This document shows positions 2,106 to 30,936 of a DNA stretch of 32,492 nucleotides, piece after piece. The notes below the pieces were generated by a model. The model did not search any database, was not told the origin of the DNA, and saw only the letters and a program-made list of their open reading frames with translations. The position numbers and the translations under genes are program-made. Each line of letters opens with the position of its first letter. Position 1 is the first letter of the stretch. Source of the stretch: Nitrospira sp. (GTDB lineage: Bacteria > Nitrospirota > Nitrospiria > Nitrospirales > Nitrospiraceae); assembly GCA_021323395.1 (NCBI GenBank), contig JAJONL010000042.1, forward strand, positions 1-32,492, written 5' to 3'.

Positions 2106-3710
2106 ATGTTGGTCCTCAATACGTCAGTGACCCCGGCCTCAGAAGACTTTCGCCACCGCCGATCCCATTACGACAGCCTGATGGCTGATCTCAAGAAGCA
2201 CTTGGCCTTCATACGGGCCGGCGGACCGGCCGATGCCGTTGCGCTCCACAAAAAGCGCGGGAAAATGACGGCACGTGAGCGGATTGCTGGGCTGCTGGAT
2301 CGCAATTCCCCCTGGATCGAGTTGAGCCCTCTGGCTGCCTTCGGCCTATACGACAACCAAGTCCCGTCGGCGGGCTTGATCACCGGTATCGGTTCAGTCT
2401 CGGGCCGATTCTGCGTCATCGCTGCAAATGATGCCACGGTGAAAGGCGGCACGTATTTTCCACTCACCATCAAGAAACATCTACGGGCACAGGAGATTGC
2501 ACTAGAGAACCGGCTGCCCGCGATCTATCTCGTGGATTCAGGCGGCGTATTCCTGCCGATGCAGGCAGAGGTCTTCGCGGACAAGGACCACTTCGGACGG
2601 ATCTTCTACAACCAGGCGCGCATGTCCGCAGCAGGCATCCCCCAAATTGCTCTGGTCATGGGCATGTGCACCGCCGGCGGCGCCTACATGCCGGCCATGT
2701 GTGATGAAAACGTTATCGTCAAAGGCACCGGCACGATCTATTTGGCGGGGCCGCCACTCGTGAAAGCCGCAACCGGCGAAGAGGTCACCACCGAGGAATT
2801 GGGCGGCGCCGATCTCCATACCCGTCTGTCGGGGGTCAGTGATCATCTGGCAAGGAATGATCGTGAGGCGTTGCAGCTGTGCCGATCGATTGTCACCACG
2901 TTGGGCCGCAGACCTTCAAAGCCGCGCCGGGAAGCAATCGAAGAGCCGCTCTATCCTGCCGAAGAACTCTACGGAATCATCCCAGACAATCCGCGTCAGA
3001 CCTGGGACCTGCGAGAGGCGATTGCGCGTCTTGTGGACGGAAGCCGCTTTCAAGAATTCAAAGCACGGTATGGATCCACGCTGGTCTGTGGTTTCGCCCA
3101 CTGGATGGGCCATCTTATCGGCATCGTCGCCAACAATGGTGTATTGCTCTCGGAATCCGCCCTGAAGGGGGCGCATTTCGTTCAGCTCTGTTCCCAGCGG
3201 CGTCTTCCGCTGGTGTTTTTGCAGAACATCACCGGCTTCATGGTGGGGAAAGACTATGAAAGCAGGGGCATCATCAAAGACGGCGCCAAGATGGTGCAGG
3301 CGGTCGCAACCGCTGAGGTCCCCAAGTTCACCATTCTGATCGGCGCCTCCCACGGGGCGGGCAATTACGCCATGTGCGGCCGCGGCTATGGGCCCAGATT
3401 CCTCTTTTGCTGGCCCAACGCCCGAACCTCGGTGATGGGTGCGCAACAGGCCGCTCAGGTCCTGGTCACCGTGAAGCGGCAACAAAGGGAACGGGAACAG
3501 GCAGAACTATCCGAAGAAGAAGAACGACGGATGACCGACATGACCCTTCGGCAATATGAACAGGAAGGCAGTCCCTATTTCAGCAGCGCCCGCCTCTGGG
3601 ACGACGGCATCCTTGATCCATTGGACACGCGCAAGGTTCTTGGCCTCTGTCTGGATCTTGCCGCCACCAGCCCGACCAGAGAGAGCCGGGCGCCGGTATT
3701 TCGCATGTGA
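2106..3710 (+). CDS. liuB: Acyl-CoA carboxylase carboxyltransferase (beta) subunit, methylcrotonyl-CoA type
   Basis: A 534-residue carboxyltransferase. The crotonase-like N half holds a biotin-side motif ([11 protein letters not shown]), followed by [20 protein letters not shown] and [11 protein letters not shown]. The second half carries the acyl-CoA site ([25 protein letters not shown]). The SGGxFLP form and the [14 protein letters not shown] stretch resemble methylcrotonyl-CoA carboxylase beta more than propionyl-CoA carboxylase. The leucine-pathway hydratase and HMG-CoA lyase lie directly downstream. It would carboxylate 3-methylcrotonyl-CoA with a biotin carboxylase/BCCP subunit that is not in this window. 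Geranyl-CoA carboxylase is the main alternative. The start is the ATG at 2106, 12 bases after the previous stop, with a GAGGTTCC-type SD. Confidence 0.88.
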
Positions 3711-11378: not shown

Positions 11379-13276
11379 GCAGCCTCTTCCAAGGATTCGA
11401 ACGGATCGAAGAAGCCCGCGAGCGATTGGCCGGTGAGAGTTTCATGGCGAGCCTCTATGACGGCCGGCCGGACTTTACTCTCCTCCTGACTCCACCCGAG
11501 CCGCCGGCAGAGAAAACAGCGGGAGAGGCTTTCTGCAAACAGGTCGAAGCCTTCTTGATGCACGAGGTGGACCCGGACGAGATCGAACGCCAGGCAAAAA
11601 TTCCCGATCGCGTCATCCAGGGACTGTTCAAGCTCGGGGCCTTCGGCATGAAGATTCCCAAAGAATATGGCGGCCTCGGCTTTTCCTACACAAATTATGG
11701 TCGTGTCCTGACCGTGATTGCGAGCTGGAGCAACATCCTCGCCTTGACGGTCGCGGTCCCCCAATCTATCGGCATCGCCATGCCGATTCTGCTGTTCGGC
11801 AGTGCAGACCAAAAGAAGAAGTACCTTCCTCTGGTCGCGAAAGAAGCCCTCTCCGCATTCGCCCTCACGGAACCCATGACGGGCTCGGATGCGGCCAATG
11901 TTCGAACCGAAGCGGTCTTGGATCACACCGGCAGCCATTTCCTGGTGAACGGTGAAAAACTCTGGTGCACGAATGGTCCGATCGCCCGATACGCCACCCT
12001 CATCGCCCGCGTCCCGGCTCTGCGGGTGGAGTGCGATGGAAAGGTCGAATGGGTTCCTGTTCCGAGGGGGCAACAGGCGGACGATCGAGTCCATACGGCA
12101 TTTATTTTGGACATGGCTGCGCCGGGTGTGGTGGTCAGTCAACGCTGTCAGTTTGAGGGCTGTCGGGGAATCGAGAATGCCCATCTCATCTTGAAGAACG
12201 TGCAAGTTCCGATCGAGCATGTGATCGGCGACGTGGGAAAGGGCTTGAAATATGCTTTAACGATTCTGAACGTAGGCCGAGGGATCAGCATTCCCGCCAT
12301 CTGCCTCGGGATGGCGAAACAGGCCTGGCAACCGACCCTGGATCGGGCGAATACCAGGGTGACATTTCAAAAACCGTTGGCGGAACGACAGACACAACAA
12401 ATCCGCATCGGAAACATGGCGGGCCATCTGTTCGCGATGGAAGCGTTGTCATTCCTGATCTGGAGACTGGCCGATCAACACCGACAGGACATTCGCATCG
12501 AAGCCGCGGTCGCCAAAATATTTTGCTCAGAGCATACGATTCAATTCCTCAGGGACGCGCAAATTCTGTTTGGAGGCATGGGGTATGAAACCGCCGACTC
12601 GAAGCAAGCTCGGGGTGAAGCGGCGTTCGGCATCGAGCAGCTCGTTCGGGATGCGGAAATGTATCGGATCGGTGAAGGAGCGACTGACATCTTGCGGCCC
12701 TTCGTGGTCCGCGAAGGACTGAGCCACCACCTGGAGCGGGCCAAGGACTTCTATGCCGAGGACCGGTCGATACTAGAACAAACCAGACAGGGGCTGCAAT
12801 TGGCACGGTTCTATGTGCCTTGGTATCTGCGGCAATGGCGCAGACGGCCTTTGCCTGATCGTAAAGCGTTCACGCACCTGCAAGTCGGGCAGGTGGCACG
12901 TTATACCGAACAAACCAGCCGGCGTCTCGCGCGAGAAATTTTGTACGCCATGACCAGATTCCAGGCCTCGTTTCGAGACGAGCAGCGGCTGCAGAACTGT
13001 ATCGAAGCGGTCGGTGAAGACCTGTTCGCCATGCTGGCGACGGTACTGTACGCGAAGCAACAGACCAGAATCGAGGGGCGGACGACGGTATGGGAATTGG
13101 CGGACGCCTTTTGCGCCTCCGCCAAACAGCGCGTTGAACAACGGCTCAGAGAATTCCGGCATCACCGGGACTACCTCGCGGCAAACACCGGGACACAAGC
13201 GCTCAAAGGGTACTACCCGAGCCTGTCCGACGGAATCATTCACCGTCGGTTGAACGATTACCTCCACAAAAAATAG
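11375..13276 (+). CDS. Acyl-CoA dehydrogenase with long C-terminal extension
   Basis: A 633-residue flavin acyl-CoA dehydrogenase. The FAD/substrate motif FALTEPMTGSDAAN is near residues 162-175, and the C-terminal IGEGATDILRPFVVREG near 431-447 contains the likely catalytic Glu. Typical short-chain enzymes end near residue 390. This protein has a longer N-terminus and about 180 extra residues after the catalytic motif, like VLCAD/ACAD9-type enzymes. It would introduce the alpha-beta double bond into the acyl-CoA made by the preceding ligase. It is the last gene of the operon and ends only 2 bases from the convergent mscS stop. No terminator is visible between them. It does not look like a standard isovaleryl-CoA dehydrogenase. 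Confidence 0.92.
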   Translation: MSSLFQGFERIEEARERLAGESFMASLYDGRPDFTLLLTPPEPPAEKTAGEAFCKQVEAFLMHEVDPDEIERQAKIPDRVIQGLFKLGAFGMKIPKEYGGLGFSYTNYGRVLTVIASWSNILALTVAVPQSIGIAMPILLFGSADQKKKYLPLVAKEALSAFALTEPMTGSDAANVRTEAVLDHTGSHFLVNGEKLWCTNGPIARYATLIARVPALRVECDGKVEWVPVPRGQQADDRVHTAFILDMAAPGVVVSQRCQFEGCRGIENAHLILKNVQVPIEHVIGDVGKGLKYALTILNVGRGISIPAICLGMAKQAWQPTLDRANTRVTFQKPLAERQTQQIRIGNMAGHLFAMEALSFLIWRLADQHRQDIRIEAAVAKIFCSEHTIQFLRDAQILFGGMGYETADSKQARGEAAFGIEQLVRDAEMYRIGEGATDILRPFVVREGLSHHLERAKDFYAEDRSILEQTRQGLQLARFYVPWYLRQWRRRPLPDRKAFTHLQVGQVARYTEQTSRRLAREILYAMTRFQASFRDEQRLQNCIEAVGEDLFAMLATVLYAKQQTRIEGRTTVWELADAFCASAKQRVEQRLREFRHHRDYLAANTGTQALKGYYPSLSDGIIHRRLNDYLHKK

Positions 13277-27333: not shown

Positions 27334-27747
27334 GCATGTTCATGAGACTCAAATTCTCCTCAGGACACAGAGGACACAACGTTGGCTCCCTCCGGACGGG
27401 CCCTGGAGCGCCGCGACATCACATGGAGGATTCAGGTCCGACGAAAGGCATTAAATGGTTGGAGCGGAAAAACCAGCCAGAGCGCACGAACGGCGGCAGC
27501 GCGTGAGCGAGACTTTCGGGTGAATGTAGCATCGCCAACTTTTGCATCGGTTGAAACGGAAAGGCTAAGAATCGAAAGCTAAGAACCGAATGTAGAAGAA
27601 ACTTCCTGCATGCTGGACTGCGCGCCCTTTTCAGTCTCACTCAGGCTGCGCTCAGGGGTCGGATATGTTCGCGCGAGGATGGAAATTCACTGAATGCGGT
27701 GAAGTTCGTCACTACACCAAGAGAGACAGCTTTTGATCGGCCATCGG
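27334..27747. other. Gene-free stretch upstream of the tRNA
   Basis: I see no credible gene. Short frames on both strands (plus 27382-27582, minus 27419-27640) lack an SD and show no recognisable protein sequence. The tRNA promoter follows at its right end. Confidence 0.45.
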
Positions 27748-27777
27748 TAGACACTTCGGTTCCGCTTCGGCTATTAT
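27748..27777 (+). promoter_or_regulatory. Probable sigma-70 promoter of the tRNA-Met locus
   Basis: TAGACA (27748-27753) and TATTAT (27772-27777) are separated by 18 bases and lie 33 bases upstream of the tRNA 5' end. After element integration, transcription from here would run through the 5' half tRNA and then antisense into the recombinase gene. Confidence 0.5.
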
Positions 27778-27809
27778 TCCATTCCCTTGATCAAGTCCAA
27801 CAGTTGCGT

Positions 27810-27847
27810 GGCGGTGTAGCTCAGTTGGCAGAGCAGCGGACTCATAA
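27810..27847 (+). tRNA. tRNA-Met(CAT), 5' half only, interrupted by an integrated element
   Basis: The acceptor 5' strand GGCGGTG (27810-27816), the D arm GCTC-AGTTGGCA-GAGC (27819-27834) and the anticodon stem-loop start GCGGA-CTCATAA (27836-27847; anticodon CAT at 27843-27845) all fit elongator-type tRNA-Met. After the loop the sequence is GCCCG instead of the complementary TCCGC. No T arm with TTCRA and no CACCGCC acceptor 3' strand follow. The gene is therefore disrupted at the anticodon loop. The missing half is expected at the far end of the element, outside the window. Confidence 0.8.
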
Positions 27848-29062
27848 GCCCGTTCCGGTTTCTGATCCGGTTCCATCTAAAAACGTCTCTTGACGAGTGC
27901 CCGTCGCCGTCTCCCCTGCTGCCGGCTCCTGCCCTTTCCCGAATGCCGCCACACTTTCCACAGCTGCGTCCAAATGTGAGGGGCTGAGATGGGCATAGCG
28001 TTTCACCAGGGCCGTCGTGGAATGCCGCAGGAGTGCCGCGATGGTTCCATCGTTGTGCCCGGCCATCGCTAAGCGACTCGCGAAGGTGTGCCGGAGATCA
28101 TGCCAGGTCACCCATGCAATCCCCGCTTGTTTCACCGCGGGAATCCATACCCGGTCGTAGAAATTGCGCGGGTCTAAATGGGTCTCCTGTGTCTCACTTG
28201 GAAATACCCAAATGGAACGGTTGCCAAGCGTCAGTCCCTGGAGGATTTGCCGAGCCTCATCATTCAGCCGCACGTATTGCACGTCTCCCGCCTTGGTCTT
28301 GGGCAGTGTGACTAGCCCTCTACCGAGATCGACTTGAGCCCACTTGAGACTGAATTGCTCAGCCTGTCTCATGCCGGTCAGAATGGCTAGCCGAGCCCAT
28401 GGGGCGTAGACAGAGCCTAGTGCATCTGCAAGCGTGGCTTCTTCTTGAGAGGAGAGAAACCGGGTTTTGCCCCTTGATTCCCTGGCGAGCTTCAGGCCGC
28501 ATACGGGGTTTGTTTGCAACTTCCCATCACGTACCGCCACGTTGAACACCTTACGGAGCCATGCAAAATAGCGGTTGACCGTGGCCGGCTGTCGCTTTAT
28601 CGCACCTCCTTCCAAGTCTCGTGGCTGCTTCACGTTACGGGTCTTGAGAGGATTCGAGAGCGTACGGCCTGTGGTGGTCTCCGTGAGCAGGAACTGCCGC
28701 GCATCCTCCAGAATGGCCGGGGTGACAGACTGGAGCCGGTAGTCTTTCAACCGCGCTTTCCACCATGCCCCGAAGCGTCGTTCATCCCGTTGGCTTTTAG
28801 TATTCCCGCTGTGGCCTATTAGGTAGCGGTCTACCAGTTCCTCTACGGTCTCGGTTCCTGCGCTTCTGTACCGTTCAGGAAAAAACAAGCCCTCCTTCTG
28901 TTCGCGCTTCGCCTTTTCATAAAACTCTCGCGCGGCTGTTTTCGTGGGGAAGCTCCCGAATCGGCTTTCCCGGCCCAGGTGATAAAGCCGCACAAACCAC
29001 ACGGCTTTGCCCTCTCGCAGTTTGGAATATAGCCCCCTGTCTTTGCGTCCTAACCGTGCCAT
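27842..29062 (-). CDS. Tyrosine recombinase/integrase, tRNA-proximal
   Basis: A 406-residue phage-type integrase. The N-terminal arm-binding region includes LYHLGRESRFGSFPTKTAAR. The core-binding domain (near 80-190) includes VEELVDRYLIGH. The catalytic domain has the full set: Arg in TGMRQAE, Lys in PKTKAGD, His-x-x-Arg in HDLRHTFAS, His in LLRHSTTALV and nucleophile Tyr in KRYAHLS. I choose the ATG at 29062 because of its AAGGAGG SD; a frame from 29122 is open but lacks one. The C-terminal tail is Gly/Thr-rich. Its last sense codon (TTA) and TGA stop lie in the tRNA anticodon loop at 27842-27847. It presumably catalyses integration at this tRNA. Confidence 0.93.
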   Translation of the reverse strand: MARLGRKDRGLYSKLREGKAVWFVRLYHLGRESRFGSFPTKTAAREFYEKAKREQKEGLFFPERYRSAGTETVEELVDRYLIGHSGNTKSQRDERRFGAWWKARLKDYRLQSVTPAILEDARQFLLTETTTGRTLSNPLKTRNVKQPRDLEGGAIKRQPATVNRYFAWLRKVFNVAVRDGKLQTNPVCGLKLARESRGKTRFLSSQEEATLADALGSVYAPWARLAILTGMRQAEQFSLKWAQVDLGRGLVTLPKTKAGDVQYVRLNDEARQILQGLTLGNRSIWVFPSETQETHLDPRNFYDRVWIPAVKQAGIAWVTWHDLRHTFASRLAMAGHNDGTIAALLRHSTTALVKRYAHLSPSHLDAAVESVAAFGKGQEPAAGETATGTRQETFLDGTGSETGTGL

Positions 29063-29109
29063 GCGCCGCCTCCTTCCACTACCTTGTTTCTCTGCCTCAT
29101 AAATTGCCT

Positions 29110-30366
29110 TCAGCCCGGCCACTCCATGTTACTGGGTGGAGAGGCACTCACCTTGACTGGTGGCACAGGCTGTTTAGGGCGTGGCATCACAGAACAGCCA
29201 AGCGCGGGCCCATCGTCATCAGGTCTCTGCCCAAATGGATCAGGCAGCGGCGTTGCGTGCTGTGCTGTCGCTTCTTCGGCACTGCCCTTCGGTCGCATCA
29301 TGGCCTCGGCTTGTTTATTGATCGCCTTATACATCGGCGCCGCGTTGAGTCGAGCATAGACTTGCGTCTGCTGCAGATTGCTGTGGTTCAGCACCTTGGC
29401 AATCACCGAGAGATTCTCCCCATCCATGGCCGCCCAACTTGCCCAGGTTCGCCGCAAGTCATGAATCGTCACATCTTTGAGGCTTGCCCGCGTTCGGATC
29501 CTGCGCCAGTACAAATGTGCGGTCGTGGCCGGCCAATAGCTGTGCCCACGAGCACTGCCGAATACATACGCCCCATCACGGGGCAGCGCCTTCAATCGCC
29601 CCGTAATCTCATCCGGCAAGGGCACGGAGTGAGGAATGCCGGTCTTCGTCATGGGCTTATGCCAGAGGCTTTTTGTGAGGTCGAGATCAGCCCACTTCAT
29701 GGACCGCGCTTCCCCGCTCCGACATGCACAGAGCAGACACAGGAGAAAGAACGCCTGTATTTGGTCAGGCTCCATGAGCAGGGACTCCAGGGCTCGTTGC
29801 ATCTCTTCACCCGGTTGGATAAACCGTGTGCGAGAGAACTGACGAAACTTCTTAATGCCGGACGCCGGGTTGCTGCCCTCGTAGAGTTCCCACGCAATGG
29901 CCTTGTTATAGACGGCCCGCAGGATTTTGAGTGAGCCTGTAGCCTGTATCCGGCTAGCCTTGGCATTCTCGAAATACCATTGCGTAACACCTTGCCGGGT
30001 CACATCGCCGAGCTTCATCGGGTACAGCGACTTGAAGTACTTCCGAATCTTGCAAAGCGCCGAGGATGGATCTTTCAGCGTGGTGAGGTGATACCGCTGA
30101 TAGAGCTCGACCACCTGCCGCAGGGTGAAATGGGAGCGGCAATATCCCCGCAGCCAGGTATCTCCAATATCTGGGAACCGCAGGCCTTCAAGGCACTCGC
30201 TGACATAGGCGCAATATTCCTCCACCGTGACACCCGCCAAACGAGCACGGGCTGGCACTTCTTCACGAATCACCGGAGGTAGCTCATCGCCGACTCCTGG
30301 CGGCATGGGCTGACGGTGTGGCGAGACTAACGAGAGGAATGGGTCTCGGTTCTTTTCGTTCGACAT
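29110..30366 (-). CDS. Second tyrosine recombinase/integrase
   Basis: A 418-residue phage-type integrase with intact catalytic residues: Arg in CRSGEARS, Lys in MTKTGIPH, HDLRRTWAS, His in LNHSNLQQT and Tyr in QVYARL. It differs clearly from the neighbouring recombinase, so it is not a recent duplicate. The start at 30366 has an AGGAGATG SD at normal spacing. It lies 47 bases upstream of the first recombinase on the same strand, and the two probably form one transcript. It could be a second site-specific recombinase for excision or for a different site, or a partner subunit; that is inference. Confidence 0.92.
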   Translation of the reverse strand: MSNEKNRDPFLSLVSPHRQPMPPGVGDELPPVIREEVPARARLAGVTVEEYCAYVSECLEGLRFPDIGDTWLRGYCRSHFTLRQVVELYQRYHLTTLKDPSSALCKIRKYFKSLYPMKLGDVTRQGVTQWYFENAKASRIQATGSLKILRAVYNKAIAWELYEGSNPASGIKKFRQFSRTRFIQPGEEMQRALESLLMEPDQIQAFFLLCLLCACRSGEARSMKWADLDLTKSLWHKPMTKTGIPHSVPLPDEITGRLKALPRDGAYVFGSARGHSYWPATTAHLYWRRIRTRASLKDVTIHDLRRTWASWAAMDGENLSVIAKVLNHSNLQQTQVYARLNAAPMYKAINKQAEAMMRPKGSAEEATAQHATPLPDPFGQRPDDDGPALGCSVMPRPKQPVPPVKVSASPPSNMEWPG

Positions 30367-30416: not shown

Positions 30417-30737
30417 TTATACAGTGAGGGCCGACTCTGGATGGGTGTCCATTGTGTGAGCCGCGGCCTCTGTCCGTTCGTCCTGTTCCTGGTCGGAGGT
30501 CCCCAAAATGTTGATATTGTCAAAGGCATCTTCAATCACTTGCAGGTGATACAGCATGCCGTTCACGGCTTGCGCCAGGTCTGCCGCCATCTCGCTTGCA
30601 TTGCGTGCGGCGGTGGGTTCCACGCTCCCCAGGAGGTGGCACAGGGCTTGGAGCGTCTTGGTCGCCTTCATCCCAAATGCACAAAAACTGTCGATGCGGT
30701 CTACTTCATCTGCGGCAATCTGGCGGAATTGAGACAT
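30417..30737 (-). CDS. Hypothetical helical protein
   Basis: A 106-residue protein I do not recognise. The sequence looks helical (FRQIAADEVDRIDSFCAFGM, then AARNASEMAADLAQAVNGML) and ends in an acidic tail. There is no signal peptide or membrane segment. A longer frame from 30857 is open, but I choose the ATG at 30737 because GGAAAGGAC precedes it and the amphipathic region begins there. It is 50 bases upstream of the second recombinase on the same strand and may be its operon leader. A small regulator or directionality factor is possible, but no motif shows it. Confidence 0.6.
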   Translation of the reverse strand: MSQFRQIAADEVDRIDSFCAFGMKATKTLQALCHLLGSVEPTAARNASEMAADLAQAVNGMLYHLQVIEDAFDNINILGTSDQEQDERTEAAAHTMDTHPESALTV

Positions 30738-30786
30738 AGGGTGGAGTCCTTTCCATGGTGTGTAGGGTGTTGGTCGATCGACTGAA

Positions 30787-30936
30787 TCAATGCACCTTCG
30801 TGTTCTCTGCCACAGCAAAACAACTTTCTTGCGAGCCGGCGCACTGGTTCTCGTCATAGCGTTGATAGGTCACCAAGGTTGCTGGCTTTGCTCCCGTTGT
30901 CTGTGCGCTGGGCGCATCTGTTCTGGTTGCCTCCAT
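30787..30936 (-). CDS. Possible 49-residue protein
   Basis: A short frame (MEATRTDAPS...) with two cysteines that ends with the TGA at 30787-30789. Its ATG is 3 bases after the stop of the RHH-like gene (TGAACGATG), so translational coupling is plausible. The SD is weak and the composition looks low-complexity, so it may be chance. I know no similar protein. Confidence 0.35.
   Translation of the reverse strand: MEATRTDAPSAQTTGAKPATLVTYQRYDENQCAGSQESCFAVAENTKVH

Follow-up and report, generated by a model that had tools for sequence, protein, structure and literature searches.

The canonical tRNA islands and prophages that recombine at the anticodon loop (Islander, PMC4383910) resemble the locus studied here in having a tyrosine integrase, a tRNA target, a junction in the loop and an integrase gene that faces the tRNA 3′ end. 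They differ from it in that our locus lacks the island-borne 3′ half and spacer, about 82 bp in total. Islands that leave a 5′ fragment are rare but known (159 of the 3919 in Islander, PMC4383910), and the archaeal pTN3-like integrases leave a 5′ half and rebuild the tRNA at the other end of the element (PMC8371274); both share with our locus a tRNA 5′ half at one element end. Actinobacteriophages are known that integrate through a short core and bring a tRNA of their own (PMC10865867). In the tRNA-dependent lysogeny of phages Fionnbharth and Gaia (PMC10865867) the core is short, the target tRNA is not rebuilt and related integrases elsewhere do rebuild it, all as at our locus, whereas no element-borne tRNA was found in the incomplete element studied here and its arm spacing is abnormal for the integrase family.

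The stretch of DNA analysed (hereafter the window) is the entire contig C78, 32,492 nt long, of a draft Nitrospira genome of 3.5 Mb in 234 contigs. The visible part of the element is 4.6 kb and, because the window is the whole contig, its far end is outside view. A first-pass annotation had described a tRNA-Met gene interrupted at its anticodon loop, and had attributed the loss to an integrated element that does not restore the 3′ half. That observation is confirmed by our analysis and the interpretation is partly supported. The features discussed below are:

27731..27809, plus strand: upstream block of tRNA-Met (CGGTAGACAC...TATTAT at about -70), the host's own copy with the promoter region; the same block lies at the same distance in nearly all same-genus loci
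27810..27850, plus strand: 5′ half of elongator tRNA-Met, through the loop CTCATAA and GCC, identical to same-genus copies
27841..27850, plus strand: 10-nt stretch CTCATAAGCC where tRNA identity ends by comparison with intact genes, either a crossover core or a deletion junction
27842..29122, minus strand: int1, a tyrosine integrase of 426 aa with an intact frame that faces the tRNA-Met half (PF00589, E 6e-22; PHROG integrase; relatives)
27854..27873, plus strand: arm-like direct repeat TCCGGTTTCTGATCCGGTTC, starting 7 nt past the loop end as against 88-90 or 113-114 nt in relatives
29110..30366, minus strand: int2, a second tyrosine integrase of 418 aa that overlaps the int1 start (PF00589, E 9e-22; PHROG integrase)
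30417..30857, minus strand: protein of 146 aa upstream of int2, presumably element-borne from its position

A tRNA-Met gene cut at its anticodon loop

Positions 27810-27850 (GGCGGTGTAGCTCAGTTGGCAGAGCAGCGGACTCATAAGCC) match the intact elongator tRNA-Met of the same genus at 41/41 nt (E 6e-15), and the identity extends 3 nt (GCC) beyond the anticodon loop CTCATAA, a little past the limit given in the first-pass annotation. Intact same-genus copies continue with GCCGCGGGTCACCCGTTCAATCCGGGTCACCGCCACCA after the loop, whereas the window has GCC and then CGTTCCGGTTTCTGATCCGGTTCC, which is the 3′ end of the int1 gene on the opposite strand. The TGA stop codon of int1 (minus strand) falls inside the anticodon loop, within 27841-27850. 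The tRNA gene thus breaks off at its loop, as the first-pass annotation had proposed, and its neighbor at the break is a site-specific integrase.

The 3′ half, which had been reported as absent, is indeed missing: a search through the rest of the window gave a best match of 14, equal to the shuffle maximum of 14, and none was found in the whole assembly. The visible junction also does not rebuild the tRNA. Specifically, ARAGORN detected zero tRNA genes across the window, the tRNA covariance model scored 17.7 bits on 27810-27878 against a cut-off of 29, and the half has no tRNA-like RNA fold (z -0.03, compared with -2.8 for an intact copy). The window's copy is unable to make tRNA, and a degenerate yet working tRNA-Met is ruled out by that score and the absence of a fold. 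An intron or an intact tRNA at the junction was looked for and neither was found; the group I intron search of the genome returned nothing at E<=10, and no other RNA family accounts for the junction. A group I intron or a split tRNA-Met was rejected, as there is no intron-family match and the 3′ half was found nowhere. The 10-nt stretch CTCATAAGCC and the lack of reconstruction agree with tRNA-dependent lysogeny and its core of about 10 bp, a pattern that a deletion would leave as well.

Host flank and element genes

In the empty-site comparison suggested in the first-pass annotation, same-genus genomes carry an intact tRNA-Met with the same upstream block. Because the window retains this block, we take the half at 27810 to be the host's own copy. 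A mechanosensitive-channel gene lies directly upstream of tRNA-Met in the relatives, whereas 13.5 kb of other genes intervene in the window. These genes, which lie at 14.3-27.5 kb of the window between MscS and tRNA-Met and include those for FtsH, a trehalase/amylase-like protein and glucose-6-phosphate dehydrogenase, are absent from that place in the relatives compared. On the right flank, the other side of the element was not located by synteny, as the TonB-like gene of G001 is only weakly matched in the window's genome.

ARAGORN found no tRNA genes within the 4.6 kb visible part of the element, and the 146-aa protein has no match in either Pfam or PHROG. The viral contigs searched for relatives of int1 and int2 held none, and phage records gave only distant integrases, with up to about 31% identity among the matches listed. 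Genome G009 encodes a 651-aa open frame (L133, 16410-18365) that looks like two fused tyrosine integrases resembling int1 and int2.

Integrases related to int1

Relatives of int1 were sought in 236 genomes of the order and chosen by integrase similarity only, which gave 26 usable loci; together with G009 and L177 these form an int1-family set of 28. In all 28 loci the tRNA is complete and the integrase faces its 3′ end; the targets are Thr, Arg, Gly, Pro, Met and another CAT tRNA, with elongator tRNA-Met as the target in three loci (G009, L177, L260). The final codons of the int1-family integrase genes contain a direct repeat built on TCACGGTT or TCCGGTT. Measured from the anticodon loop, this repeat begins after 88-90 nt in 24/28 loci and after 113-114 nt in 4/28. 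Its position and conservation suggest that the repeat is an arm-type integrase site.

The window has no CGGTT motif at the canonical loop-to-arm place, and its int1 has 3 aa after the repeat, compared with about 10 or more in the relatives' integrases. Relative to the 28 loci, about 82 bp between the loop and the arm repeat is missing. In some relatives (L250, L248) AGCC or TGCC directly precedes the repeat. The near-fixed loop-to-arm spacing helps to tell a later deletion from a truly non-restoring attP, and provides a simple test for other cases.

tRNA genes in the assembly

We found no other elongator tRNA-Met in the assembly. Two other CAT tRNAs (L053 and L045) are read from their sequences as an initiator Met and a tRNA-Ile2-like gene, respectively. 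Among the assembly's tRNAs, ARAGORN identified no intact Phe-GAA, Ser-GCT, Gly-GCC, Ile-GAT or Ala-TGC, all of which are indispensable tRNA genes, so the absence of a second tRNA-Met is weak evidence that the cell lacks this tRNA. As for the number of tRNA-Met(CAT) genes raised in the first-pass annotation, no other elongator copy is seen in the assembly, which with such gaps may undercount them. An apparent 3′ half of tRNA-Phe(GAA), from the anticodon stem-loop to CCA, lies on contig C145 of this genome (G000) at about 11464-11524 on the minus strand (L137), and no intact tRNA-Phe occurs anywhere in the assembly; thus, the assembly can lose an intact tRNA copy yet keep a fragment. Two complete tRNA-Met copies in G123 and G171 were set aside as evidence of redundancy, as they may be strain mixtures.

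The window's genome (G000) also contains two tRNA-Arg halves. A 5′ half of tRNA-Arg(CCT) ending in TTTCCTAA, with no 3′ half, is found on contig C42 at 3091-3129 (L102, L097), with integrase C-terminal sequence directly upstream and no intact tRNA-Arg(CCT) in the assembly. A 5′ half of tRNA-Arg(TCT) is present on C145 at 41-79 (L137, L098), and an intact tRNA-Arg(TCT) on C191. The 127 nt downstream of the C145 half share 72% identity with those after the C42 half.

Origin of the junction

A tyrosine integrase lies beside the tRNA-Met junction and there is no complete tRNA at the integrase side; on account of this absence we read the element as a decayed derivative and not as an intact 3′-half-restoring island. 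The displaced 3′ half that such an island would leave at its far end is not in the assembly, but that end lies outside the contig. The disrupted tRNA-Met is most likely the decayed junction of an ordinary 3′-side element, a reading to which we give a probability of roughly 0.47. An element with a 3′-half-restoring int1 would have inserted in the ordinary manner at the anticodon loop of the host elongator tRNA-Met, where the 3′ half that it brought completed the host 5′ half and int1 pointed toward the 3′ end of the tRNA. Some 82 bp, or 106 if the longer spacing was ancestral, would later have been deleted, and with them the spacer and the 3′ half of the tRNA. The loss would have left the anticodon loop joined directly to the C-terminal codons of int1 and this tRNA-Met copy dead, and it probably locked this end of the element in place. 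Given the AGCC or TGCC that precedes the repeat in some relatives, the deletion could have arisen through a short GCC microhomology. On this account the cell would need another tRNA-Met gene to survive, and none is seen in the assembly.

The junction and its shortfall against the relatives are shown by the sequences. We infer the order of events, integration and then deletion, and prefer it because complete tRNAs and near-fixed spacing are found in 28/28 relatives and exactly that stretch is missing here. It is also the simplest account, since no radically different integrase site need be assumed, and the host upstream block retained by the 5′ half counts in its favor. Several points count against it. 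The breakpoint is no more than 3 nt from the integrase crossover, whereas a deletion at random would not have to end there. The assembly has no second tRNA-Met(e), though intact Phe, Ser-GCT and Gly-GCC are absent too. Also, the tRNA-Met 5′ half in 10 other genomes appears to be due to a 5′-restoring element. The state before the deletion is deduced from the relatives. Of the first-pass claim that the element inactivates this tRNA-Met copy, the death of the copy holds; its cause, integration with an attP lacking the 3′ half, is not supported, since the roughly 82 bp missing by comparison with the 28 relatives points to a later deletion, although a short-core attP retains some probability.

Alternatively, the window may show the left end of a 5′-half-restoring element, which would have left the host 5′ half behind and, beyond the contig, rebuilt tRNA-Met intact with a promoter and 5′ half that it supplied itself. 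We consider this unlikely, though the strongest of the alternatives. Of 196 other genomes in the order, 10 have a tRNA-Met copy with only the 5′ half, and all 10 have an intact copy too; where the two share a contig, they are on the same strand and the intact gene lies downstream. The window's genome also holds the 5′ halves of tRNA-Arg(CCT) and tRNA-Arg(TCT), and viral contig L180 combines an attP-like integrase with a tRNA-Met 5′ half. However, in the 5′-restoring examples found here any integrase identified lies directly ahead of the rebuilt tRNA, at the element's far end, and never faces the leftover half, whereas the int1 family is always on the tRNA 3′ side and the window's int1 faces the broken half; the left end would need to be a truncated int1 gene. 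No second tRNA-Met 5′ half was found in the assembly, but the far end where it would lie is beyond the contig, and a further integrase may lie there too. Because the known integrases precede the rebuilt tRNA, we keep this reading as a rival and not as first choice. More doubtful is an attP that shares only the short core (CTCATAAGCC, 10 nt), so that integration itself breaks tRNA-Met while the element brings a tRNA-Met gene of its own, located past the contig end. As in the Fionnbharth/Boilgate pair (PMC10865867), there is a core of about 10 bp, the integrase is intact, relatives rebuild this tRNA and the break falls at the crossover. However, integrases of the int1 family would probably not function with the 7-nt attL spacing seen here, where relatives have 88-90 or 113-114 nt, and the visible 4.6 kb of the element has no tRNA gene. 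The full form of this idea, in which a short-core element with a new attP geometry for its integrase destroys the host's only elongator tRNA-Met and makes the host dependent on the tRNA gene that it supplies, is more doubtful still; if true, it would place tRNA-dependent integration in a Nitrospira-like bacterium instead of an actinobacterium. An artefact of the draft assembly or of strain variation, with the junction a rare variant or misjoin and the main population carrying an intact tRNA-Met, seems equally improbable. The 234 contigs, a window that is a whole contig and the several tRNA genes missing from the assembly are consistent with it, as is G171, where integrated and unintegrated versions of one site were seemingly assembled side by side. 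Both integrase frames are intact, though, and a misjoin over only about 3-5 shared bases would be unusual.

5′-half-restoring elements in the order

Elements that restore the 5′ half are common at tRNA-Met and tRNA-Arg among relatives in the order. A small minority in Islander, they recur at these two targets in this bacterial order and put an essential tRNA under the control of a promoter that the element supplies. At tRNA-Arg(CCT) in G015 (L171), the host 5′ half is followed by about 17 kb with Zot, Rep_trans and an integrase gene, and then by an intact tRNA. To the right of this tRNA the sequence matches that of G009, where the site is uninterrupted. A 7.1-kb version of the element is present in G004 (L172). 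The tRNA-Met element of G087 is 14.8 kb long, and its integrase ends about 10 nt ahead of the rebuilt tRNA.

The Zot and Rep_trans genes of the G015 element recall filamentous phages, and on its 3′ side the tRNA is faced by a second integrase. In viral contigs L180 (Met), L182 (Arg-CCT) and L183 (Arg-CCT), an integrase adjoins a tRNA 5′ half that has no 3′ half; in L183 the integrase frame passes through the tRNA half, a layout like that of the window. In G138 (L229-L231) a single contig carries an intact tRNA-Met gene and two 5′ halves of this tRNA, all on one strand within 182 kb, apparently two 5′-restoring elements in tandem.
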